DNA from: Planctomycetota bacterium
GTDB lineage: Bacteria; Planctomycetota; Phycisphaerae; Phycisphaerales; SM1A02
Direction of reading: 5' to 3'
Assembly: GCA_017859745.1 (NCBI GenBank)
Contig: JAFMML010000004.1
Coordinates: 1-64,000 of the forward strand
Length of the DNA: 64,000 bases
The notes beneath the pieces were generated by a model. The model ran no database searches. It was given only the letters and a program-made list of their open reading frames with translations, and was not told where the DNA came from. Made by a program: the position numbers and the translations under genes. Shown piece by piece: positions 43,719 to 55,546 of the stretch (positions are counted from its first letter, which is position 1; each line of letters begins with the position of its first letter).

Positions 43719-45287
43719 TCACTCCCACTCGATGGTCGCGGGCGGCTTGCTCGAGATGTCGTAGACCACGCGGTTGACGCCGCGCACCTCGTTGATGATG
43801 CGGTTGCTCACCGTCGCCAGGACGTCGTAGGGAATGCGGGCCCAGTCGGCGGTCATGAAGTCCTGGGTCTCGACGGCGCGGATCGCCACCACCGAGTCGT
43901 AGGTCCGTCCATCGCCCATCACCCCCACCGCCCGCACCGGCAGCAGAACCGCGAAGGTCTGGTCGGTGCTGCGGTAGAGCGAGTTCGCGACGATCTCCTC
44001 GAGCAGGATCTCGTCGCACTGCCGCAGGACCTCGAGGCGTTCCGAGGTGACTTCACCGAGCACCCGCACCGCGAGTCCCGGACCGGGGAACGGATGCCTC
44101 CAGACCACGGCGCTGGGCAGGCCCAGCACCTCGCCGAGCGCCCGCACCTCGTCCTTGAAGAGGTCCCGCAGGGGTTCGACCAGCTCGAAGCCCAGCTCCT
44201 CGGGAAGACCGCCCACGTTGTGGTGGAGCTTGATGCCCGCGGCAGTGCCGGCATGACCGTGGCCGCTTTCGATCACGTCCGGGTAGAGCGTGCCCTGTGC
44301 AAGGAACGCGGCGCCGCCGACGCCCTCGGCAGCCTCCTTGAACACGTCGATGAAGCGATGGCCGATGCGACGCCGCTTCTCCTGCGGGTCGGTGATGCCG
44401 GCAAGGTCGCCGAGAAACGCCGCCGAAGCGTCCACGACGCGGAGATCCGCCTCGAAGTGGTCCCGGAACGTCCGTTCGACCAGTTCCCGTTCGCTGGTGC
44501 GCAGCAGGCCGTTGTCCACGAAGATGCAGGTGAGTTGCCTGCCGATGGCCCGCTGCAGCAGCGCCGCCACCACCGAGCTGTCGACCCCTCCGGACAGGCC
44601 GCAGATGACGCGACCGTCGCCGACCTGGGCTCGAACCCGCTCGCAGGCGGCCTCGAGGAAGTCGCTCATCCGCCACGACGCATCGCAGCGGCAGATTCCG
44701 TAGAGGAAGTTCCGCAACAGATCGCCGCCATGCGGAGTGTGGGTGACTTCGGGGTGGAACTGCACGCCGTAGAACCGCTTCCCGAGATGCCGAACCGCCG
44801 CATGCGGGCAGGTCTCCGAGGACGCCAGCACCTCGAAGCCGGTCTGGAGTCCCGAGACCTGATCGCCGTGGCTCATCCAGACGCTGGTGCGATCGGGCAG
44901 GCCTGCGAGCAGATCGCCGCCATCCTCGATGCGAAGCGCCGTGCGTCCGAACTCGCGGGCCTCGGCGGCCTCGACGGTCCCGCCGAGGATCTGGCAGCCG
45001 ATCTGCATGCCGTAGCAGATGCCCAGGATCGGCACGCCCAGATCGAAGATCGCCGGGTCGCAGCGAGGAGCCTCGCGATCGGTCACCGACGACGGTCCTC
45101 CGGAGAGCACGATCCCCTTCGGGCGCATCGCGGCCAGTTCCGCGGCGGGCCGATCCGGTGCGACGAGCATGCTGAAGACGCCCGCCTCTCGAATCCGCCG
45201 CGCGATCAGCTGCGCGTACTGGCTTCCGAAGTCGAGGATCAGGATGGTGTCGACGCCCTCGGGCGGCGTGGGTTGGACGGTGGACAT
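43719..45287 (-). CDS. guaA: GMP synthase (glutamine-hydrolysing)
   Basis: The 522-residue enzyme converts XMP to GMP using glutamine. The N-terminal class I amidotransferase domain (about 15-200) has [18 protein letters not shown] and the nucleophile Cys in [10 protein letters not shown]; catalytic His and Glu are in [13 protein letters not shown]. The ATP-PPase domain has [13 protein letters not shown], and the dimerisation C-terminal domain ends [23 protein letters not shown] at 45287 has GGAGCGACC upstream. Length is normal for the family. It is divergent from the cytochrome oxidase operon. Confidence 0.98.
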
Positions 45288-45424
45288 GGTCGCTCCATGG
45301 TCCGGGGCCGGCGAAACCGCGAAAGGTATCACGACCCGCTTCCATTCGGGGGGGCGTGCCTCCGGAGCGCCGCTCCGCGAACCGCTCGTCGCCCCGGCCG
45401 CCGAGGACGCATCGCGTCTTCGGG

Positions 45425-45430
45425 TACCCT
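45425..45430 (+). promoter_or_regulatory. -10-like TACCCT of coxB
   Basis: TACCCT ends eight bases before the coxB ATG at 45439, giving an almost leaderless transcript for the oxidase operon. No -35 or Shine-Dalgarno sequence is clear. The gap 45288-45438 has no other visible feature. Confidence 0.4.
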
Positions 45431-45438
45431 TCGACGCG

Positions 45439-46617
45439 ATGCGAGGTCTTCGACGTGGTCGATCTCTCTGGAGACTCGGTTTCGGCTGGGCATCCGCGCC
45501 GGCCTGCGATCGACCCGTCCGGGTAGGCCGCCTGATCGCGACATCGCTGGTCATGACGGTCCTGGCGGTCGGGGCGGTCGCGGCGCCCGTGGCCGCCGCA
45601 GCAACGCAGACCGCCGATGCGACCAGCTCGGAGATCTGCGATCCCACCTCCGGCCTGCCGCTGCCGAGCATCCCGTCGATGTTCGAGCCGGCCAGTCCGC
45701 CGGCGGCGGACATCGAAGCCCTGACCTGGCTGCTGCTGGGCATCTGCGCCGCGATCTTCGTGGTCGTGCAGGCGGCGCTCGTGCACGCGATCGTCAAGTA
45801 CCGCGCGGGACGCGCCGCCGTCGATCGGGATGGCGTTCCCGGCGAACCCCGCCAGGTCTACGGCAGCAATCCGGTCGAGCTGGCCTGGACGGTGATTCCG
45901 ATCGTGATCGTGTTCGTCCTCGCGATGACCTCGGTGCGACTCATTCGGGACATCGAGCGGACCTCGCCGCCCGAGGGAGCCCTCGCGGTCACCGTGATCG
46001 GGCATCAATGGTGGTGGGAGTACCGCTATCCCGAACTGGGCATCGTCACCGCCAACGAGCTGGTGGTCCCGGCGAACCGCCCCGTCTGGCTCGAACTGCA
46101 TTCGGCCGACGTCAACCACTCCTGGTGGGTGCCGCAACTGTCCGGCAAGAAGGACTGCATTCCCGGCCACACCAACGTGCTCTGGTTCGAGGCGGAGCGC
46201 CCCGGGGTCTTTCTCGGCCAGTGCGCCGAGTACTGCGGCACCCAGCACGCCAACATGCTGCTCCGGGTCGAAGCCCGCGACGACGCGGGATTCGACGCGT
46301 GGGTGCGGGGCCAGCAGTCGCCGCCGGCATCCGACGACGACGAAGAGGTTCTCCGTGGTCGCGAGGTCTTCCTCGCCCTGGCCTGTCAGGCGTGCCACGA
46401 CATCGCCGGAGTCAGCGAAGGCGCCTTCGGGCCGAACCTCACGCATCTCATGAGCCGGTCCACCATCGGCGCGGGCGTGGCGCCGCTCGACCGCGACACC
46501 CTGCGGCAGTGGATCGACGACCCGCAGACCCTCAAGCCCGGCTGCAACATGCCGAGCCTCGAACTCGACGACGCCCAGCTCGACGCGGTGGTCGCCTATC
46601 TCGCGACGCTCCGCTGA
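45439..46617 (+). CDS. coxB: Cytochrome c oxidase subunit II with C-terminal heme c domain
   Basis: The 392-residue subunit has an N-terminal signal/hydrophobic segment ([20 protein letters not shown]) and two membrane helices ([40 protein letters not shown]). The CuA site is complete: His227 (VNHSWWVPQ), then Cys262, Glu264, Cys266, His270 and Met273 ([13 protein letters not shown]). Residues about 300-392 form a cytochrome c domain with C316-Q-A-C-H320 and an axial Met (about 371, CNMPSLELD). This caa3-type arrangement lets the subunit accept electrons from the bc complex without a separate cytochrome c. Starts at ATG 45439. First gene of the operon. Confidence 0.97.
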
Positions 46618-46657: not shown

Positions 46658-48337
46658 ATGACCACGCTTCCGACCACGCCCGCCGAGACCGTCGCCGACC
46701 GCAGGGCCGAACCGCTGTCGGCGCGACTGCACCTGTGGGCGATCACCGTGGACCACAAGCGCCTCGGGATCATGTACGTGCTGTCGGGGCTCGTCTTCTT
46801 TCTCGTGGGAGGCCTCGAGGCGTCCGCGATGCGGGCCCAGCTCGCCCGGCCCGGCAACGACCTCGTGAGTCCGGAGGTCTTCAACCAGCTCTTCACGATG
46901 CACGGCACCACGATGGTCTTCCTCGTGGGCATGCCGGTGCTGCTGGGGATGGGCAACTACCTGATCCCGTTGATGATCGGGGCGCGGGACATGGCCTTCC
47001 CCCGCCTCAACGCGTTCGGGTTCTGGCTGTTCCTCTTCGGCGGCCTGCTCCTCTACTACAGCTACATCGGCGCCCAGGGTCTCTACGGGACCTCGGCGGC
47101 GCCCGACGTGGGCTGGTTCGCCTACGCCCCGCTGACCGATCGCACCTTCAGCCGCGGCAACAGCACCGACTACTGGATCCTCGGGATCATGGTCAGCGGC
47201 TTCGGCTCGATCGCGACCGGCGCCAACCTGGTCGCCACCATCCTGTGCATGCGCTGCCGGGGCATGACGCTCATGCGGATGCCGCTCATGGCCTGGATGA
47301 TGCTGGTCGTCGGCGTGCTGGTGCTGACGGCGCTGGGCCCCCTGACCGCGGCGCAGGTCATGCTGCTCTTCGACCGCAACCTCGGCGCCCACTTCTTCGA
47401 TCCGCAGGAGGGCGGCAGCGCCATCCTGTGGCAGCACTTCTTCTGGTTCTTCGGCCACCCCGAGGTCTACATCCTGATCCTGCCGGCGTTCGGCTTCGTC
47501 AGCGAGATCGTGCCGACCTTCAGCCGCAAGGTGATCTTCGGCTACCCGCTGATGGTGGCCGCGACGGTGGGCATCGGCTTCATCTCGCTGAGCGTCTGGG
47601 CCCACCACATGTTCGCGGTCGGTCTCGGGCCGGTGCTCGACGCGTTCTTCAGCGCCATGACCTTCATGATCGCGGTGCCGACCGGGATCAAGATCTTCAA
47701 CTGGATCGGCACCATGTGGGGCGGCCGCATCCGCTTCGCGAGCCCCATGCTCTTCGCCACAGGCTTCGTCGCGATGTTCGTGATCGGCGGGCTCACCGGC
47801 ATCATGCTGGCGATGGTGCCCTTCGACTGGCAGGTCAGCGACAGCTACTTCGTGGTCGGCCACTTCCACTACGTGCTCTTCGGCGGCACGATCTTCGCGA
47901 TCTTCGGGGCGCTCCACTACTGGTATCCCAAGGCGGTCGGCCGCATGCTGAACGAGACCATCGCGAAGTGGTCCTTCTGGCTGCTGTTCGCGGGGTTCAA
48001 CCTGACCTTCTTCCCGATGCACATCAGCGGCCTGCTGGGAATGCCGCGCCGCATCTACACCTTCCAGCCCGACCGAGGCCTCGAGCTCTGGAACCTGCTC
48101 TCGACCGCCGGCGTGCCGCTGCAGGCCGCGGGCGTCCTGCTCATCGTGTGGAACCTGCTGCGTTCCCACCGCAAGGGCGCGATCGCGGGCAACGATCCGT
48201 GGGACGCGTGGACGCTCGAATGGGCGACCACGAGTCCGCCGCCCGAGCACAACTTCGACGAGCCGCCGACCGTCGGCAGCCGCCGCCCCCTGTGGGACCT
48301 GAAGCACCCGGAGGATCCCGATGGCCGCTACGAGTGA
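46658..48337 (+). CDS. coxA: Cytochrome c oxidase subunit I
   Basis: The 559-residue catalytic subunit has about 12 membrane helices and all redox ligands: His82 (MHGTTMVFL) and His404 for heme a, His402 for heme a3 (VGHFHYVLFG), and CuB ligands His267 (WFFGHPEVYI, with the cross-linked Tyr271), His316 and His317 (AHHMF). The D-channel entry Asp111 and Asn118 (GARDMAFPRLNAFGFW) and the K-channel Lys345 (PTGIKIFNW) are conserved, so it is an A-type proton-pumping oxidase. The N-terminus starts MTTLPTTPAETVADR. It is 40 bp after coxB and overlaps coxC by 17 bp. Confidence 0.98.
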   Translation: MTTLPTTPAETVADRRAEPLSARLHLWAITVDHKRLGIMYVLSGLVFFLVGGLEASAMRAQLARPGNDLVSPEVFNQLFTMHGTTMVFLVGMPVLLGMGNYLIPLMIGARDMAFPRLNAFGFWLFLFGGLLLYYSYIGAQGLYGTSAAPDVGWFAYAPLTDRTFSRGNSTDYWILGIMVSGFGSIATGANLVATILCMRCRGMTLMRMPLMAWMMLVVGVLVLTALGPLTAAQVMLLFDRNLGAHFFDPQEGGSAILWQHFFWFFGHPEVYILILPAFGFVSEIVPTFSRKVIFGYPLMVAATVGIGFISLSVWAHHMFAVGLGPVLDAFFSAMTFMIAVPTGIKIFNWIGTMWGGRIRFASPMLFATGFVAMFVIGGLTGIMLAMVPFDWQVSDSYFVVGHFHYVLFGGTIFAIFGALHYWYPKAVGRMLNETIAKWSFWLLFAGFNLTFFPMHISGLLGMPRRIYTFQPDRGLELWNLLSTAGVPLQAAGVLLIVWNLLRSHRKGAIAGNDPWDAWTLEWATTSPPPEHNFDEPPTVGSRRPLWDLKHPEDPDGRYE

Positions 48338-48953
48338 CGCCACCGTCGATCCCACGGACGGCGCGACCCGCCGAGACGCCGTCGAATGGCGGCCCTCCCG
48401 CGGCAAGGTCGGCGTGGCCTCGCTCATCGCGATGGAGAGCTTCTTCTTCGGCACCTTCATCGTGGCGTTCCTCTTCTACATCGGGAAGGACGTCCACGGC
48501 CCCACCGGCGCCACCGCCCTCGACGTCGGCCCGGTGATCGTCTGGTCGATCTGCCTGCTCTCCTCGAGCGCCACCGTCGTCGCCGCCGTGAAGGCTCTCG
48601 CCCGCGGCGCGAAGGCCGCATTCGAGTTCTGGATGGGGGCGACGCTGCTGCTCGGCGGCGCGTTCGTCTACGGCACCGCGGTGGAGTGGCGCGGCCTGAT
48701 GCTCGACCACGAACTGTTCATCTCGACCAACCTCTTCGGCAGCACCTACTACGGTCTCGTCGGCTTTCACGCGTTCCACGTGGTGCTGGGACTCCTGGCG
48801 CTCGGCATGATCTGGACGCTCTCGAAGCTCGGGCACCTGCGGGCCGTCGATGCGGAGAAGGTCGAACTGGTCAGCTGGTACTGGCACTTCGTGGACGTCG
48901 TGTGGATCTTCGTCTTCACCAGCGTCTACCTCTTCGGCACGGGGATCCTCTGA
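48321..48953 (+). CDS. coxC: Cytochrome c oxidase subunit III
   Basis: The 210-residue subunit has about five membrane helices and the subunit III signature: SLIAMESFFFGTFIVAFLFY, GFHAFHVVLGLLAL, SWYWHFVDVVWIFVFTSVYL. It is the shorter bacterial form. ATG at 48321 lies inside the end of coxA, with a GGAGG Shine-Dalgarno sequence in the coxA coding region, so translation is coupled. Its stop shares one base with the next start (TGATG). Confidence 0.96.
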   Translation: MAATSDATVDPTDGATRRDAVEWRPSRGKVGVASLIAMESFFFGTFIVAFLFYIGKDVHGPTGATALDVGPVIVWSICLLSSSATVVAAVKALARGAKAAFEFWMGATLLLGGAFVYGTAVEWRGLMLDHELFISTNLFGSTYYGLVGFHAFHVVLGLLALGMIWTLSKLGHLRAVDAEKVELVSWYWHFVDVVWIFVFTSVYLFGTGIL

Positions 48954-49768
48954 TGGCGACTCCGGACGACGCGCGAGAGACGCCCTACGCCCGGGCGATT
49001 CCCCGACCGACCGCGGGGCCGCTGGTCGCCGCGTTCGGCGTCGCCATGCTGTTCGCTGGCATCGTCACCAACGTCGGCGCCAGCGTGGTCGGCGCGGTGG
49101 CGCTGGTCTTCGGCGGCGTGATCTGGTTTCGCGAGGTCATGCCGGACGAGGCCGTCGAACCGATCGAGGCGACCGGCGGCCAGACCGTGGTGACGCCTCC
49201 GCCGCTGCCGGCCCGGGACGCCCCGAGCCGAAGACTCCTGCTGCCGGTCGAGATCCATCCATATCGGGCCGGACTCGTCGGTGGACTCGCCGGCGGCGCC
49301 GCCATGGCGGTCGTCGCGGCGGCATGGGGCCTGGTCGAGCACGGCAGCGTGTGGCTTCCGATCAACCTGCTCGCGGGCGCGGTCAATCCCGGCATGGCGG
49401 CGATGGGCGAGCCGGAACTCGCCGCCTTCGACGGAGGTTGGATCGCGATCGCCGTCGGCATCCACGCGGCCCTTTCGATCATGACCGGCCTCCTGTTCAC
49501 GGTGGCGCTCCCGATGATGCCGCGACGACCGATGCTGTTCGGCGTCGTCGTCGCGCCGGTGATCCTCTCCTCGCTTTCCTGGAGCACCATGGGCATCGTG
49601 AATCCAGCCATGGAGGAGTTCATCTCCTGGCCGTGGTTCGTCGGCAGCCAGATCGCCTTCGGCGCGGTGTGCGGCGCGGTCATCTCCCGCGTCGAGAAGG
49701 TGCCGACGATGGCGGCGCTGTCGACCTCGGAGCGGCTCGGCATCGAGCAGAGCGAGGTGGGATCGTGA
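48953..49768 (+). CDS. Membrane protein of the respiratory operon, unknown
   Basis: The 271-residue protein has about six membrane helices (PLVAAFGVAMLFAGIVTNVG, VVGAVALVFGGVIWFREVMP, LVGGLAGGAAMAVVAAAWGL, WIAIAVGIHAALSIMTGLLF, MLFGVVVAPVILSSLSW, FVGSQIAFGAVCGAVISR). A cytoplasmic or periplasmic linker (about 55-95) is acidic/proline-rich. It shows no cysteine or heme motif. It lies where a subunit IV-type gene is often found but does not resemble cox4. It starts at an overlapping TGATG and ends in a GTGA overlap with the cytochrome c gene, so it is stoichiometrically expressed with the complex. Confidence 0.83.
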   Translation: MATPDDARETPYARAIPRPTAGPLVAAFGVAMLFAGIVTNVGASVVGAVALVFGGVIWFREVMPDEAVEPIEATGGQTVVTPPPLPARDAPSRRLLLPVEIHPYRAGLVGGLAGGAAMAVVAAAWGLVEHGSVWLPINLLAGAVNPGMAAMGEPELAAFDGGWIAIAVGIHAALSIMTGLLFTVALPMMPRRPMLFGVVVAPVILSSLSWSTMGIVNPAMEEFISWPWFVGSQIAFGAVCGAVISRVEKVPTMAALSTSERLGIEQSEVGS

Positions 49769-50496
49769 GGGCGACGCTCCTTCTGGCGACGTGCGGCGCA
49801 CTCCTCGCCGGCTGCGGCGGCGGGGCTCTTCCTCCCGGCAGCGTCGAGGCGGCCCCGCCCGAGGCGCCGGGTCTCGACACCGCCGAAGGGGTCGCCGCCT
49901 TCTACGCCAACGCCTGCTCGGGCTGTCACGGCGCCGACGGCTGGCACGGAGCGGCACGACCGCTCGCCGATCCCCTGTGGTGGCGCACGATGCCCGACGA
50001 GCAGATCGTCGAGGCGACCGCGGTCGGCCTGGGTCGCCTGATGCCGGGCTTCTCGAAGGATGCCAAGGGCGGGCCGTACATCGCCTACGCCGGCCTCGAT
50101 CGCGACGACGTCGCGACGTTCGTGAAGGGACTCCGCAAACGCTGGGAGACCGGGGGTGAACCGGCCCCGGCCGGATCGGCGGTTCGACTCGGCGACGCGT
50201 CGATGGGCGGCGAACTCTTCTCGGCGCACTGCGCGTCCTGCCACGTCGAGGGAAGTCGCGACAGCGTGCTGAACCCGTTCTATCTCGCCAACGTCACCGA
50301 CCAGGGCCTCTGGAGCGCCGTGGTCTTCGGCCGACCCGATCTGGGCAAGGCGCCCTCGTCGCTGTCGCCGGACGAGATCGCCGACGTCGTCGCGTTCATG
50401 GCGAGCAGGCGACCGTCGTGGGCCTCGCAAGGCGCCGTCGAGCCGCCGCTTCCGACATCGCCCGATCCCGACACCACCAGGGAGACCTCTCCGTGA
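49765..50496 (+). CDS. Di-heme cytochrome c lipoprotein
   Basis: The 243-residue protein has a lipoprotein signal (LLATCGALLAGC, lipidated Cys17). Two heme sites are present: C51-S-G-C-H55 (first domain, axial Met in LMPGF, about residue 93) and C156-A-S-C-H160 (second domain). The second domain has no convincing axial Met; the equivalent stretch reads VFGRPDLGKAPSSLS. GTG at 49765 overlaps the previous stop by four bases (GTGA), as does its own stop with the Rieske start. It is membrane-anchored and probably shuttles electrons between the bc complex and oxidase. Confidence 0.93.
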   Translation: MRATLLLATCGALLAGCGGGALPPGSVEAAPPEAPGLDTAEGVAAFYANACSGCHGADGWHGAARPLADPLWWRTMPDEQIVEATAVGLGRLMPGFSKDAKGGPYIAYAGLDRDDVATFVKGLRKRWETGGEPAPAGSAVRLGDASMGGELFSAHCASCHVEGSRDSVLNPFYLANVTDQGLWSAVVFGRPDLGKAPSSLSPDEIADVVAFMASRRPSWASQGAVEPPLPTSPDPDTTRETSP

Positions 50497-51191
50497 GTGC
50501 AGCCGAGGACGAACGCAGAGCGAACGACACGCCCCTGCCGCAGGCGAGCGGCGCCGACACCCAGAGCGCGACGGACGGCTCGCCCTGCGAAGGCTGCGGA
50601 AGCTCCGCGGCAGCCGGTGGCGGCCGGCGAGAGTTCATGTTCAAGATCGGGCTTGGCCTCATGGGTGCCGGCGGTGTCGCCGCGGCCGCGCCCGTCGTCT
50701 CGGCGATGCTGGCGCCGGGATTCCGTTCCTACGCCGAACAATGGGTGGACCTGGGCGCGGTCGAGGACTTCCCACCCGGCGAGACCCGCTTCGCCACCTT
50801 CGTGAACCCCTGGACCGCACCCACCGACGGGCTCACCGCGAGAACGGGTTGCTGGGTCCGCCACATTCCGCCCGGCGGCGCATCCAGGCGTGGGCCGGTG
50901 CAGCCGCTCGATACGAGCTCGGACGAGCCCCCGCCGCCGGACGCGTTCAATCCGGAGGCGCCGGACTTCCAGGTGTTCGCGGTCAACTGCGCCCATCTGG
51001 GCTGCCCGGTGCGCTGGTTCCCGCAGTCGCGGCTCTTCATGTGCCCCTGCCACGGCGGCGTCTACTACGAGGACGGTTCCCGGGCGAGCGGCCCCCCGCC
51101 TCGCGGACTCTTCCCCTACCCGGCGAAGATCGAGAACGGTCGCCTCTGGATCGACGCGGGACGACTTCCGGGCCTCGAGGAGGCGCCCTGA
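50493..51191 (+). CDS. Rieske iron-sulfur subunit of a cytochrome bc complex
   Basis: The 232-residue protein has a twin-arginine-type N-terminus (GGRREFMFKIGLGLMGAGGV) and one membrane helix, then a Rieske domain with cluster ligands CAHLGC (about 166-171) and CPCHGG (about 185-190), the usual Cys-His and Cys-His pairs. An N-terminal extension of about 45 residues contains a PCEGCG motif, absent from normal Rieske proteins. GTG at 50493 overlaps the cytochrome c stop by four bases. It is cotranslated with the cytochrome b gene (the stop TGA shares a base with the next ATG). Confidence 0.95.
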   Translation: MSAAEDERRANDTPLPQASGADTQSATDGSPCEGCGSSAAAGGGRREFMFKIGLGLMGAGGVAAAAPVVSAMLAPGFRSYAEQWVDLGAVEDFPPGETRFATFVNPWTAPTDGLTARTGCWVRHIPPGGASRRGPVQPLDTSSDEPPPPDAFNPEAPDFQVFAVNCAHLGCPVRWFPQSRLFMCPCHGGVYYEDGSRASGPPPRGLFPYPAKIENGRLWIDAGRLPGLEEAP

Positions 51192-52702
51192 TGACGGACC
51201 ACGGCTCGCCCAACGAGCGAGGTCCGCTCGCCCGCGCCGTGCTCGGCCCGCTCTCGTGGCTCGAGGACCGCACCGGCATCGGCGCGTTCATCGCGCCGAT
51301 CATGACCCACCGCGTGCCGCCGAGCGCGAAGTGGTTCTACGTCTTCGGCAGCGCGACGCTGATGTTCTTCTCGCTGCAGATCGTCACCGGGATCTGCCTC
51401 GCGACGCTGTACGCCCCGAGCGCCTCCAACGCCTACCAGAACCTCGTCCACATCGACACCCAGGTGCCGTTCGGATGGATGCTGCGGGCCCTGCACGGTT
51501 GGTCGAGCAACGCCATGGTGGCGATGATGATCCTCCACATGGTGCAGGTGTTCCTGCACGCGACCTACAAGTTCCCGCGCGAGATGACCTGGATGGTCGG
51601 CGTCCTGCTCTGCCTGCTGACGCTGGCCCTCGCCTTCACGGGGCAGGTGCTGCGGTGGGACCAGGACGCGTACTGGGGCATCGGCATCGGCGCCGCCATC
51701 GCCGACCGCATCCCCTTCGTGGGCAACTGGGCGCGAGGCCTGCTGCTCGGCGGTCCGATCATCAGCGGCGAGACCCTCAGCCGGTTCTTCGCCCTGCACG
51801 TCTTCGTGCTGCCAGGGATCACCATCGCCCTCGTCGGCCTGCATCTGGTGCTCGTGCTTCGGCATGGGATCAGCGAGATGCCCAAGGCCGGCGAGCCCGT
51901 CGACCCGGCGACCTATCGCGAGGCCTACGAGAAGCGGATCCACAAGGAAGGCGTGCCCTTCTGGCCCGATGCCGCCAAGCGGGACATGGTCTTCTGCGGG
52001 CTCGCCCTGCTGGCCCTGGTCGCGATCGCGCTTCTCGCCGGCCCGATGGGTCCCAACGGCATCCCCGATCCCACCGACATCGAGACCAACCCGAGGCCGG
52101 ACCTGCCGTTCCTGTGGATCTTCGGTCTGGTCTCGCTGATCCCGCCGGCGAGCGAGACGGCGGTGATGCTGATCGCGCCGGGCGTGCTGATCCTCGGCCT
52201 CGTCCTGCTGCCTCTCTTCGGCAACGCCGGCGAACGGGCTCCGAGCCGCCGGCCCTTCATGGTGCTGGGCGTGGTGCTCGCGGCCACCACCGTCGGAATC
52301 CTCACGTGGGAGGGCGCGAAGAGTCCGTGGAGCCCGGTGATGGACGCGTGGAGCTCGATGCCGACGCCGATCGAGTACGTCGAGGATCGAGGACCGCTCG
52401 AGCTGCAGGGCGCCGTGGTCGTTCAGAACGCCCAGTGCCGCAACTGCCACGAACTCGGCGGAGAGGGCGGCAAGCGTGGACCGGCGCTCGACGACGTCGC
52501 GACGCGCCTCTCCTACGACCAGCTGATCCGCCAGGTCCAGCAGGGCGGCGGCAACATGCCTGCGTTCGGCAAGAACCTGACCAGCGCCGAGACCGAAGCG
52601 GTCGTGAGGTTCCTGCTGACCATGCATCCGGCGAACGAGCCGGTCTCCAGCCCGCCGGGCGCACTGCTGCCGATTCCGCCGCAGGCCGCCGAGCGACGCT
52701 GA
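51191..52702 (+). CDS. Cytochrome b with fused C-terminal cytochrome c
   Basis: The 503-residue protein joins a full cytochrome b to a heme c domain. Heme b ligands are His102 and His116 (LHGWSSNAMVAMMILHMVQV) and His203 and His218 (ALHVFVLPGITIALVGLHLV). The Qo-site motif, normally PEWY, reads P303-D-L-P (NPRPDLPFLWIFG). Residues about 400-503 hold C416-R-N-C-H420 and axial Met456 (GGGNMPAFG). The b/c fusion in one chain places a heme c next to the Rieske protein, as in menaquinol-cytochrome c reductases. ATG at 51191 overlaps the Rieske stop. Confidence 0.95.
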   Translation: MTDHGSPNERGPLARAVLGPLSWLEDRTGIGAFIAPIMTHRVPPSAKWFYVFGSATLMFFSLQIVTGICLATLYAPSASNAYQNLVHIDTQVPFGWMLRALHGWSSNAMVAMMILHMVQVFLHATYKFPREMTWMVGVLLCLLTLALAFTGQVLRWDQDAYWGIGIGAAIADRIPFVGNWARGLLLGGPIISGETLSRFFALHVFVLPGITIALVGLHLVLVLRHGISEMPKAGEPVDPATYREAYEKRIHKEGVPFWPDAAKRDMVFCGLALLALVAIALLAGPMGPNGIPDPTDIETNPRPDLPFLWIFGLVSLIPPASETAVMLIAPGVLILGLVLLPLFGNAGERAPSRRPFMVLGVVLAATTVGILTWEGAKSPWSPVMDAWSSMPTPIEYVEDRGPLELQGAVVVQNAQCRNCHELGGEGGKRGPALDDVATRLSYDQLIRQVQQGGGNMPAFGKNLTSAETEAVVRFLLTMHPANEPVSSPPGALLPIPPQAAERR

Positions 52703-52757: not shown

Positions 52758-52763
52758 TACGCT
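52758..52763 (+). promoter_or_regulatory. Leaderless -10 TACGCT of the CtaG fusion gene
   Basis: TACGCT is followed by CCGCCC and ATG at 52770, again six bases. The two-gene unit 52770-55546 therefore seems to have its own promoter although it follows the bc operon by only 67 bp. Confidence 0.5.
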
Positions 52764-52769
52764 CCGCCC

Positions 52770-55049
52770 ATGCCTGCCGCCTGGACCGTGCCCCCGTGGA
52801 CGACGATCGCGATCGTCCTGCTCGCGGCGGCGTACCTGCGCGGACGCATCGGCCTGCCGGAGCGATTCTCGAGAGGACGAGCCGCATGCTTCCTGGCCGG
52901 CCTTGCCACGCTCTGGATCGCGCTGGCCTCGCCGGTCGACCTCTATGCGAACTACGCCCTCTGGCCGCACATGGTGCAGCACGTGCTGCTGTCGCTGGTC
53001 GCGGCGCCGCTCGTCGTGCTGGGCATGCCCGGAGTCCCGGTCTTTCGCGGGCTGCCTCGATCGTGGCAGCGGTTCGTCGGCCCGCTGCTGGCGGCGCGAG
53101 CGACTCGCCGCGCGTATCGCCTGCTCCTGCATCCGCTGACCGCGGGGATCCTCTTCTCGCTGGCGATGTGGATCTGGCACATCCCGGCGCTCTACGACCT
53201 CGCGGTCGCCGTTCCGTTCTGGCACGCCGTCGAGCACGCCTTCTTTCTCGGCACCGGGGTGCTCGTCTTCTGGAACGTCTTCGAGCCGTGGCCGTTCCGG
53301 TCGGCGTGGGGACCGTTGCCGCGGGTGCTGCTGCTGTTGGCGATCGATCTGCAGAACACGGTCTTCTGCGGCATCCTCGCCTTCGCGGGCCGGCCGCTGT
53401 ACGCCTCGTACGAGACCACGGCGCCGATGCTCGGCGTCTCGCCGATCGCCGATCAGGAGATCGCCGCGGGACTGATGTGGGTCGCGAGCCAGGCGGTGAT
53501 GCTGCCGATCGCGGGATGGCTCGTCGCCCGCAGCGTGCGGACATCGAATCGACGGTCGCCGCTGGCCCTGCCGAGCGGTGCGGGCGGTGTCCCGACGCCT
53601 TCGTCGGCATCGTCGGCCACCTCGCCCCCGGCACGACGCCGTCCGCGGCCGACGCTTGCGAGGGCGGTGCTCGGACCGGCCCTGAAGCATCGCGCGGTCC
53701 GCGACGGCGTGCGCTGGATCGCGTTCGCGCTTCTCGTCGCGGTCTGCCTCGACGGCTGGCTGGGCCCGCAGGAGGCGCCCGCGAACCTCGCGGGCACCCT
53801 GCCGTGGACCCACGGCCGCGGCGTGGTGGTCCTCGGCATCCTGCTCGTGGGCAACCTCGCCTGCATGGGCTGTCCGTTCATGGCGCCGCGCGGCCTGCTG
53901 CGACGGTTCGTGCGCCCGACCCGTCCGTTTCCGAAGGCCTTGCGATCGAAGTGGCTCGCGGTCGGTCTCGTGGCGATCTGGCTCGCCTGCTACGAGGCGT
54001 TCGACCTCTGGGCGAGTCCGATGGCGACCGCGTGGATCCTCGCGGGCTATGTCGCGGCGTTGATCGCCGTCGACGCGTTCTTCTCGGGAGCGTCGTTCTG
54101 CAAGCACGTCTGTCCGCTCGGGCAGTTGCACGGCGCGATCGCCGAGGCCGCCCCGGTCGAGGTCGGCGTGCGCGACGCCGAGATCTGCGAGCGTTGCACG
54201 ACCATGGAGTGCATTCGAGGAGCGCCGGTCGTCGCGCCGGCGCCCGCGGCGACGCTCGCGCTGCCGGTGCTCGCGACGCCTCGGTCGGCAACGAGGATCC
54301 CCGGCTGCGAGATGCACCTCGCCCAGCCGCGCAAGCGTGGCAACCTCGACTGCACCTTCTGCATGGACTGCGCCCACGCCTGCCCGCACGACAACGTGGA
54401 CCTCGTCGATCGTCGCACCGTCGAGGATCTCGCCGACGATCCGCAGCGATCGGGCGTGGGCCGGATCTCCCGGCGCCTCGATCTGGCGATGCTTGCGGCG
54501 GTGCTGGTCTTCGGCGCCTTCGCGAACGCCCTCGGCATGACCGAGCCGCTCGTCGAGGCGATGCGGCGGTTCTCGGCGTCGATCGGTCTGCCGGACGACC
54601 GGGTGGTCGCCTTCGTCGGCACGCTCGCGTTCGCCCTGCTCGTTCCGGCGGTGATCGGCGTCGTCGCCGCAGGCGGCTCGCGAGAACGGTTCTGCCGCGG
54701 CATGCGCGGTCTTCTGCCGCTTGGGGCCTCGATGTGGGCGGTGCACTTCGGCTTCCACCTCGTGACCGGCTTTTCGGCGGGCTGGGCGAGCCTGCAGCGG
54801 GCCGCAGGCGACGTCGGCCTCGATCTGGGGACGCCGCAGTGGGCGCTCGCCTGCTGCGCGAACGTGCCGCCCTGGCTCGTGCCCGCGGAACTGCTCGCGT
54901 TGCAGGTCGGTGTGCTCGTCTCCGCGGCCGCGCTGGTCCGAAGTCTCGGCCGCCGCGCGTGGCCGTGGATCGCGATCGCGGCGGCACTCTGCATGCTCGG
55001 CTTCTGGATCGTGCAGGTGCCGATGGACATGCGTGGGACGGTGGCATGA
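52770..55049 (+). CDS. CtaG-type oxidase assembly domain fused to a membrane 4Fe-4S domain
   Basis: This 759-residue membrane protein has a caa3-type CtaG domain at about 1-255, with conserved histidines His67, His71 (HMVQHVLL), His137 (WIWHIPALY), His152 and His156 (WHAVEHAFFL). A Ser/Pro/Arg linker (260-295) leads to a second membrane domain (about 310-759) of the NapH/NosR/CcoG type, with C365-M-G-C-P, C444-K-H-V-C-P, C473-E-R-C and C481, and C528-T-F-C-M-D-C-A-H-A-C-P. That spacing (CxxCxxCxxxCP) is a ferredoxin 4Fe-4S site. A role in preparing copper for CuA/CuB is a good guess. ATG at 52770 is preceded by a -10 at six bases. It is overlapped by the next gene by four bases. Confidence 0.93.
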   Translation: MPAAWTVPPWTTIAIVLLAAAYLRGRIGLPERFSRGRAACFLAGLATLWIALASPVDLYANYALWPHMVQHVLLSLVAAPLVVLGMPGVPVFRGLPRSWQRFVGPLLAARATRRAYRLLLHPLTAGILFSLAMWIWHIPALYDLAVAVPFWHAVEHAFFLGTGVLVFWNVFEPWPFRSAWGPLPRVLLLLAIDLQNTVFCGILAFAGRPLYASYETTAPMLGVSPIADQEIAAGLMWVASQAVMLPIAGWLVARSVRTSNRRSPLALPSGAGGVPTPSSASSATSPPARRRPRPTLARAVLGPALKHRAVRDGVRWIAFALLVAVCLDGWLGPQEAPANLAGTLPWTHGRGVVVLGILLVGNLACMGCPFMAPRGLLRRFVRPTRPFPKALRSKWLAVGLVAIWLACYEAFDLWASPMATAWILAGYVAALIAVDAFFSGASFCKHVCPLGQLHGAIAEAAPVEVGVRDAEICERCTTMECIRGAPVVAPAPAATLALPVLATPRSATRIPGCEMHLAQPRKRGNLDCTFCMDCAHACPHDNVDLVDRRTVEDLADDPQRSGVGRISRRLDLAMLAAVLVFGAFANALGMTEPLVEAMRRFSASIGLPDDRVVAFVGTLAFALLVPAVIGVVAAGGSRERFCRGMRGLLPLGASMWAVHFGFHLVTGFSAGWASLQRAAGDVGLDLGTPQWALACCANVPPWLVPAELLALQVGVLVSAAALVRSLGRRAWPWIAIAAALCMLGFWIVQVPMDMRGTVA

Positions 55050-55546
55050 GGCGGCGGCGCACGCATCGTTCGCTCGGCCCTGCGGCGGTGCTCGTCGCAC
55101 TCGTCACGGCGACGCCCGTGGCCAACGGCGACGGCGGCGCCCTCGTCGCACGAGGCGAACTGGACAACGGCGAACCCGCAGCGGTCTTCGTCTCGCCGGT
55201 CCCGCCGCGGGTGGGGCTCGTCGCGATCGAGGCGGCGTCGGCATCGTGGCGGGCGACGCCCCCACGCATCCTCCTCGAGCGGAACGGATTGGTGCTCGGC
55301 GGCGCCTCCGCACCGTCGCCGTCCGATCCGCTTGCGGCCTTCATCGAGATCGAGGTGCCCGCCGAGGGCATGTGGCGCCTCGTCGTCGAGAGCGATGCGG
55401 GACGTCTCGAAGCCGACGTGCCGATCGCGGCCCAACCTCCACCCTGGCGGAGTCGCCTGCCATGGATGCTGGCGTGGATCCCGGCGACGCTGTTGCTGTG
55501 GGCTCGCGCTCGCCTGGTGCGAGGCCGGAACGCCCTCTCCGCATGA
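55046..55546 (+). CDS. Small exported, membrane-anchored protein after the CtaG fusion
   Basis: The 166-residue protein has a signal peptide (RRRRTHRSLGPAAVLVALVT), a beta-rich extracytoplasmic domain (about 30-130: VARGELDNGEPAAVFVSPVP, AAFIEIEVPAEGMWRLVVES) and a C-terminal membrane helix (LPWMLAWIPATLLLWARARL) with a basic tail. No cysteine or metal motif is visible. ATG overlaps the previous stop (ATGA), so it is coexpressed with the fusion. Position suggests a FixH-like role in oxidase assembly, but the sequence does not show that family. Confidence 0.75.
   Translation: MRRRRTHRSLGPAAVLVALVTATPVANGDGGALVARGELDNGEPAAVFVSPVPPRVGLVAIEAASASWRATPPRILLERNGLVLGGASAPSPSDPLAAFIEIEVPAEGMWRLVVESDAGRLEADVPIAAQPPPWRSRLPWMLAWIPATLLLWARARLVRGRNALSA

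Follow-up and report, generated by a model that had tools for sequence, protein, structure and literature searches.

How copper is delivered to CuB in bacteria without Cox11 is an unsettled question, on which a fusion gene of a Planctomycetota bacterium bears. The gene lies in the window analysed here, i.e., the whole stretch of 64,000 nucleotides taken from contig JAFMML010000004.1, and encodes a protein of 759 residues (P0001) in which a CtaG domain is joined to a NapH-like Fe-S domain. What such a chain may do for the caa3-type oxidase encoded beside it, and whether its Fe-S half is concerned with copper, are the questions that this locus raises.

The Fusion Gene

The gene for P0001 occupies 52770..55049 on the + strand, with an ATG at 52770 and a TGA at 55049. 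A sequence-only reading of the same DNA had described a single frame of 759 residues starting at 52758; the frame stands, while its start has to be moved to the ATG found 12 bases further downstream. All the residues singled out in that reading (H67, H71, H137, H152, and H156, together with the cysteines C365/C368, C444/C448, C473/C476/C481, and C528/C531/C534/C538) are present as positioned. To these the alignment of the family (A3, 33 rows) adds C513, an invariant cysteine that had been overlooked and that brings the conserved cysteines of P0001 to 12. Compared with 49 other proteins, P0001 displays 33–77% identity. From the Pfam Caa3_CtaG match (4e-53), the conservation in these 49 proteins and the nearly constant absence of internal stops from the frame in the relatives, it can be concluded, on sequence grounds, that the frame is a real gene. 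Since the same frame is found in many independent genomes, an assembly artefact has been ruled out as the origin of the fusion.

The CtaG Half and the Linker

The assignment of the first third of the protein to CtaG is borne out by Pfam, as PF09678 (Caa3_CtaG) matches residues 21–257 (52830..53540, + strand) with 180.7 bits and an E-value of 3.9e-53, well over the gathering score of 27.7 bits; conservation, the helices of the AlphaFold model and the charge bias also delineate this domain, which comprises seven helices. The five histidines named above are nearly invariant in the family alignment, and D228 is kept in 44 of the 48 rows having a residue at that position; conserved histidines and one Asp are the proposed metal ligands of Caa3_CtaG. 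With 78.8 bits, P0001 remains below the NCBIfam cut-off of 279 for TIGR02737, the equivalog of the Bacillus subtilis-type CtaG, and its CtaG half is, by sequence, a divergent member of the wider CtaG family and not a TIGR02737 equivalog. A 2022 review (PMC9145763) treats the involvement of Caa3_CtaG in the assembly of CuB as tentative only.

No CtaG match other than the fusion occurs in the genome of the window. Extra CtaG copies were seen in a single relative (L085, G004:C44), where a pair of oppositely oriented, unfused CtaG genes adjoins a gene for a heavy-metal P-type ATPase-like protein and several SCO genes. In P0001 the CtaG domain is followed by a low-confidence linker (residues 258–295, 53541..53654, + strand, pLDDT about 46–75), and the stretch matching residues 257–306 ranges from 26 to 73 amino acids among the relatives.

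The Fe-S Half

The NapH-like membrane Fe-S core (residues 303–547, 53676..54410, + strand) has four helices and was delimited by NCBIfam, hhalign and the conserved cysteines. It is laid out as two Cys pairs at helix ends (C365xxC368P and C444xxxC448P), followed by eight Cys of the two-cluster ferredoxin type (C473xxC476xxxxC481, C513, and C528xxC531xxC534xxxC538P). This second domain had been read as CcoG/NapH-like, a proposal of which only the NapH part survives. NapH/MauN is the best NCBIfam match (E 1.2e-10 with the whole P0001 and 4.4e-11 with its C-terminal part), the 41.3 bits over part of the model being below the cut-off of 213 for TIGR02163. The hhalign comparison of family A3 with NapH-like proteins gives an E-value of 4e-15 (probability 98.4, 173 columns), and the profile comparison with CcoG gives 1.5e-6 over 99 columns. 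On the C-terminal part, TIGR02745 (CcoG) reaches 9.1 bits (E 0.54) vs. an NCBIfam cut-off of 316.7, and membership of this half in CcoG has been ruled out on this ground and on the preference for the NapH-like profile. Moreover, a C-terminal Ig-like domain in cis, of the CcoG type, is seen neither in the Pfam scan of P0001 nor in its predicted helices, which run to the end of the chain; the same scan gives no match to Cox11 (PF04442). The C-terminal half of P0001 is therefore assigned, from its sequence, to the NapH-like superfamily.

The remainder of the chain is a five-helix module (residues 570–759, 54477..55046, + strand), identified by family conservation, AlphaFold helices, profile comparison and charge bias. 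It contains the motifs W656xxH659xxxH663 and, at the C-terminus, PMxMRG (M752, M754), conserved in the family; a sister subfamily, alignable to the Fe-S protein over its full length (E 1e-62), retains both the His pair and PMxMR. In two loci of genus g6 (L016 and L019) the fusion occurs in a form naturally deprived of the ferredoxin region (about residues 461–567), which still possesses CtaG, both membrane Cys pairs, H659/H663 and PMxMRG.

Predicted Structure and Topology

The AlphaFold2 model of P0001, based on 50 sequences, has a mean pLDDT of 88.7 and a pTM of 0.73, and sixteen transmembrane segments can be read from its helices. The counts of K+R alternate between successive segments, from 7.0 in the loop 361–394 to 0.1–0.4 in most outer loops, with the weakest contrast (1.4) in the loop before the sixth segment. 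The amino end is predicted to be outside. On the basis of the alternating charge bias, all twelve cysteines are predicted to be cytoplasmic, and H67, H71, H137, H152, H156, H659, H663, M752, and M754 to lie near the outer face. No match with E <= 0.001 was obtained with Foldseek for the whole model against the PDB, and the best VIA-align hit in the same database (Z 7) is within noise and mostly covers the CtaG half, so that the C-terminal half was barely probed by this comparison; a PDB sequence search with P0001 gave no match.

The Oxidase Operon and the Exported Partner

Upstream of the fusion, and on the same + strand, lies a set of genes for a bc-caa3 chain. The first is coxB (45019..46617), identified as being of the caa3 type by its C-terminal cytochrome c domain (Pfam COX2 and Cytochrom_C) and by co-occurrence; the coordinates are those of the open frame, whose true start is probably near 45400. 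It is followed by coxA, for subunit I (46658..48337, Pfam COX1 5.8e-162), coxC, for subunit III (48321..48953, Pfam COX3), a gene for a conserved protein of 271 residues (48953..49768), assigned to no family and found at this position in the relatives' oxidase operons as well, and a cytochrome c gene with two cytochrome c-type stretches (49765..50496, family scans and synteny). The genes for the Rieske protein (50493..51191) and for a cytochrome b with a C-terminal cytochrome c domain (51191..52702), both recognised by Pfam and synteny, complete the series. One SCO-like gene is found on another contig of the genome, near a second coxB-like match.

Downstream, the stop codon of the fusion overlaps, in an ATGA, the start of the gene for P0002 (55046..55546, + strand), an exported protein of 166 residues with an Ig-like beta-sandwich and a C-terminal membrane anchor. 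The model of P0002 (pLDDT 91.3) consists of the beta-sandwich and the anchor, and its nearest fold matches are Ig domains, although weak (best E 5.5e-3). The coupled exported protein had been suspected of belonging to the same unit as the fusion, a suggestion sustained by synteny in nearly all the loci examined. An Ig-like periplasmic domain has been described in CcoG (PMC7558416), and by analogy the domain carried there in cis may here be supplied in trans by P0002. His- or His/Met-rich inserts, such as HADHRGHEGHAGMNMSSAMMHGD, were observed in the P0002 relatives of L047, L052, L054, and L056; P0002 of the window has no His-rich insert.

Distribution and Evolution

Of 101 relatives, 26 encode the fusion, whole or in fragments and usually in a stop-free form; genome G012, which contributes no more than a piece of CtaG at the end of a contig, has been excluded from this count. 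A scan of species-representative genomes revealed the fusion also in Planctomycetota, Verrucomicrobiota, Myxococcota and in one Bryobacterales MAG. In nearly all the fused loci located on long enough contigs, across phyla, the gene order is coxB (with cytochrome c)-coxA-coxC-hypothetical-cytochrome c-Rieske-cytochrome b-fusion; the fused locus L057 is without oxidase genes on its short contig. The phylogenetic profile of the fusion against caa3-type coxB, recommended in the sequence-only reading, gave coxB of this type in 26 of the 26 carriers among the 101 relatives, and this result, together with the synteny, upholds the proposed link between the fusion and the adjacent caa3-type oxidase. 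A coxB of this type without the fusion was found in two genomes, G047, only 55% complete, and G029, which has an unfused CtaG. The co-occurrence has a Fisher p of 4e-22, or 3e-15 within the family, both values being inflated by kinship among the genomes. Cox11 was found in none of the 61 relatives tested, and CcoG is absent from the genome of the window and from 24 of the 26 fusion carriers.

As regards the history of the chain, the CtaG and Fe-S halves have evolved in step (correlation of pairwise distances 0.83), and in the tree of the Fe-S half a branch with support 49 and 95 splits the fused from the stand-alone forms. As each form is confined to one side of this branch, the sequences are compatible with a single fusion event.

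Stand-Alone and Distant Fe-S Relatives

Stand-alone relatives of the Fe-S half are present in Pirellulaceae and other Planctomycetota, in Bacteriovoracaceae and in an Elusimicrobia MAG, and no bc-caa3 genes were found around them within flanks of 8 kb. They belong to a set of four genes encoding a His-rich HxEH membrane protein without a Pfam name, a YtkA-like protein, the NapH-like Fe-S protein and, in the position of P0002, an exported anchored protein of the HEGPPxP type. The YtkA-like lipoprotein has the motif NMxHAGMxP in most cases and matches PF13115 (5.5e-12) in R. baltica; in B. subtilis, YtkA (CtaK) has a role in cytochrome c oxidase biogenesis (PMC9145763, PMC13344008), and the context of the stand-alone form, as judged from the genes present, supports a link with copper. 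The set was observed in loci L039, L043, L048, L049, L050, L051, L053, L061, L155, and L156, and in Pirellulaceae it is followed by genes for FG-GAP/ASPIC-UnbV proteins. The HxEH membrane protein was also considered as a hidden CtaG, an identification left unsupported by a profile probability of 7.6 over only 20 columns around WHxxEHA.

A more distant subfamily (L086, L087, L152, L153, L154, and L157) is found in operons with NapA-, NapG-, and NapH-like genes, most of these neighbours having been named by reading their sequences and not by a family scan. Several of its members are fused to a YHS metal-binding domain, and an SCO-like gene is part of the L152 operon; the YHS fusion was dropped as additional evidence for copper, as the genes concerned lie in the NapA/G/H operons. 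The occurrence of the same domain, His pair and PMxMR included, in such operons implies, at the level of sequence, that the Fe-S domain by itself would be a general electron module and not a copper-specific one.

Proposed Function and Alternatives

A role of P0001 in oxidase biogenesis, taken alone, appears highly probable. The fuller statement, that P0001 is a copper-handling CuB assembly factor with a built-in Fe-S electron module and with P0002 as its partner, is, as a whole, evenly balanced between being right and being wrong. According to this proposal, P0001 would be an assembly factor of the adjacent caa3-type oxidase, in which the five histidines of the CtaG half would bind copper near the outer face and aid its delivery to CuB in subunit I. 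On the cytoplasmic side, eight cysteines would hold two predicted [4Fe-4S] clusters and the four others would lie at the membrane edge, while the five-helix addition would place His659/His663 and Met752/Met754 at the outer face. The two halves would most likely be joined so that copper remains Cu(I) where it is inserted, or is reduced there from Cu(II), with electrons drawn from the cytoplasm or from the quinone pool; P0002 would act on the same outer side, as a substitute for the Ig-like domain present in cis in CcoG. Reduction may take place in the cytoplasm, as with CcoG (PMC8475189), or the electrons may cross the membrane by an unrecognised route. We infer the identity of the metal, the clusters, the path of the electrons and the reduction of Cu(II) by P0001; the case for copper is built on the fusion with CtaG, the Met/His-containing YtkA-like partner of the stand-alone form, the absence of Cox11, the usual absence of CcoG and the predicted topology. 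Counting against this reading are the two proteins of a single genus (L016, L019) that have naturally lost their ferredoxin part, the presence of the same C-terminal domain in NapA/G/H operons and the tentative status of Caa3_CtaG as a CuB assembly factor. A further weak point is the separation of the sites: the clusters are predicted to be cytoplasmic, the CtaG copper site lies on the outer side, and no cofactor that could connect them across the membrane was recognised. A more specific version, in which electrons from the cytoplasmic [4Fe-4S] clusters would cross the membrane to an outer His2Met2 site (H659, H663, M752, M754) and reduce periplasmic Cu(II), the resulting Cu(I) passing to the CtaG histidines and then to CuB within a single chain, is considered unlikely.

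Among the alternatives, the Fe-S half could reduce a target other than copper, such as disulfides of the CuA site, of Sco or of apo-cytochrome c, or maintain the redox state of heme or subunits, while CtaG would handle copper separately. That NapH-type domains are general electron modules, that the related subfamily resides in NapA/G/H operons, one of which has an SCO-like gene, and that the Fe-S half itself bears no copper-specific signature all speak in its favour; yet the clade is paired with copper-type partners in two arrangements (the CtaG fusion and the YtkA-like Met/His protein), and the window shows no thioredoxin-fold gene next to the fusion, so that we regard this explanation as rather improbable. 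P0001 could also be a respiratory subunit, in which a NapH-like dehydrogenase, oxidising quinol or ferredoxin, would supply the bc-caa3 chain and CtaG would be attached for co-assembly only, as might be suggested by the position of its gene directly downstream of those for the Rieske protein and cytochrome b and by NapH/MauN being the nearest named family. This possibility seems quite doubtful, however, as the Fe-S half is joined to an assembly factor and not to a respiratory subunit, its clusters are predicted in the cytoplasm and the bc and caa3 donors are outside, and the stand-alone relatives have no bc-caa3 genes in the 8 kb flanks. Finally, a copper importer or exporter module similar to the CtaG-CopD fusions, whose Fe-S half would reduce copper in the cytoplasm, either prior to transport or following it, finds a parallel in the 16-helix CtaG-CopD fusion CtiP of Corynebacterium glutamicum (PMC9145763), in the reduction of Cu(II) by CcoG in the cytosol (PMC8475189) and in the predicted cytoplasmic location of all the P0001 cysteines, but is given little chance, as the Pfam scan of P0001 shows no match to CopD and no known membrane-spanning transport motif was found.

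Comparison With Known Systems

The proposed assembly factor shares features with several proteins already described. B. subtilis CtaG (PF09678), which is required for an active oxidase (PMC9145763), shares the conserved histidines of P0001 in a domain of seven helices and is encoded by a gene ending a caa3 oxidase locus; it stops, however, after the seven helices, whereas the chain of P0001 continues with a NapH-like Fe-S domain and a five-helix module. CtiP, which serves the bc1-aa3 supercomplex (PMC9145763), likewise combines CtaG with another membrane module in one chain of 16 helices. The partner of CtaG in CtiP is CopD-like and N-terminal, with no Fe-S domain described, whereas in P0001 it is C-terminal and contains 12 Cys. 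NapH/MauN (TIGR02163) and P0001 have in common four helices, the Cys pairs and the layout of a dicluster ferredoxin, but the former has neither the five-helix module nor CtaG and belongs to a different operon. CcoG/RdxA/FixG (TIGR02745) is also a membrane protein with two Cys pairs at helix ends, a two-cluster ferredoxin and a link to oxidase biogenesis, from which P0001 differs in the lack of an Ig domain in cis, in the first pair being CxxC and in five extra helices; CcoG serves the cbb3 oxidase. A precedent for the coupling of copper handling to an Fe-S domain is CopZ of Archaeoglobus fulgidus, in which a copper chaperone carries a Cu(II)-reducing Fe-S domain in the same protein (PMC7558416); CopZ is, however, a cytosolic chaperone, and the two membrane domains of P0001, CtaG and NapH-like, belong to other families.

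Thus, fusions of CtaG and a fusion of a chaperone with an Fe-S domain were already known, and what appears to be new is the joining of CtaG to a NapH-like Fe-S domain, of which no account was found in the open-access papers searched; planctomycetes do not figure in the 2022 review on proteins of oxidase assembly (PMC9145763). With CtaG and an Fe-S electron module combined in one oxidase operon in at least three phyla, the fusion offers a single gene in which copper handling and redox control can be tested together.
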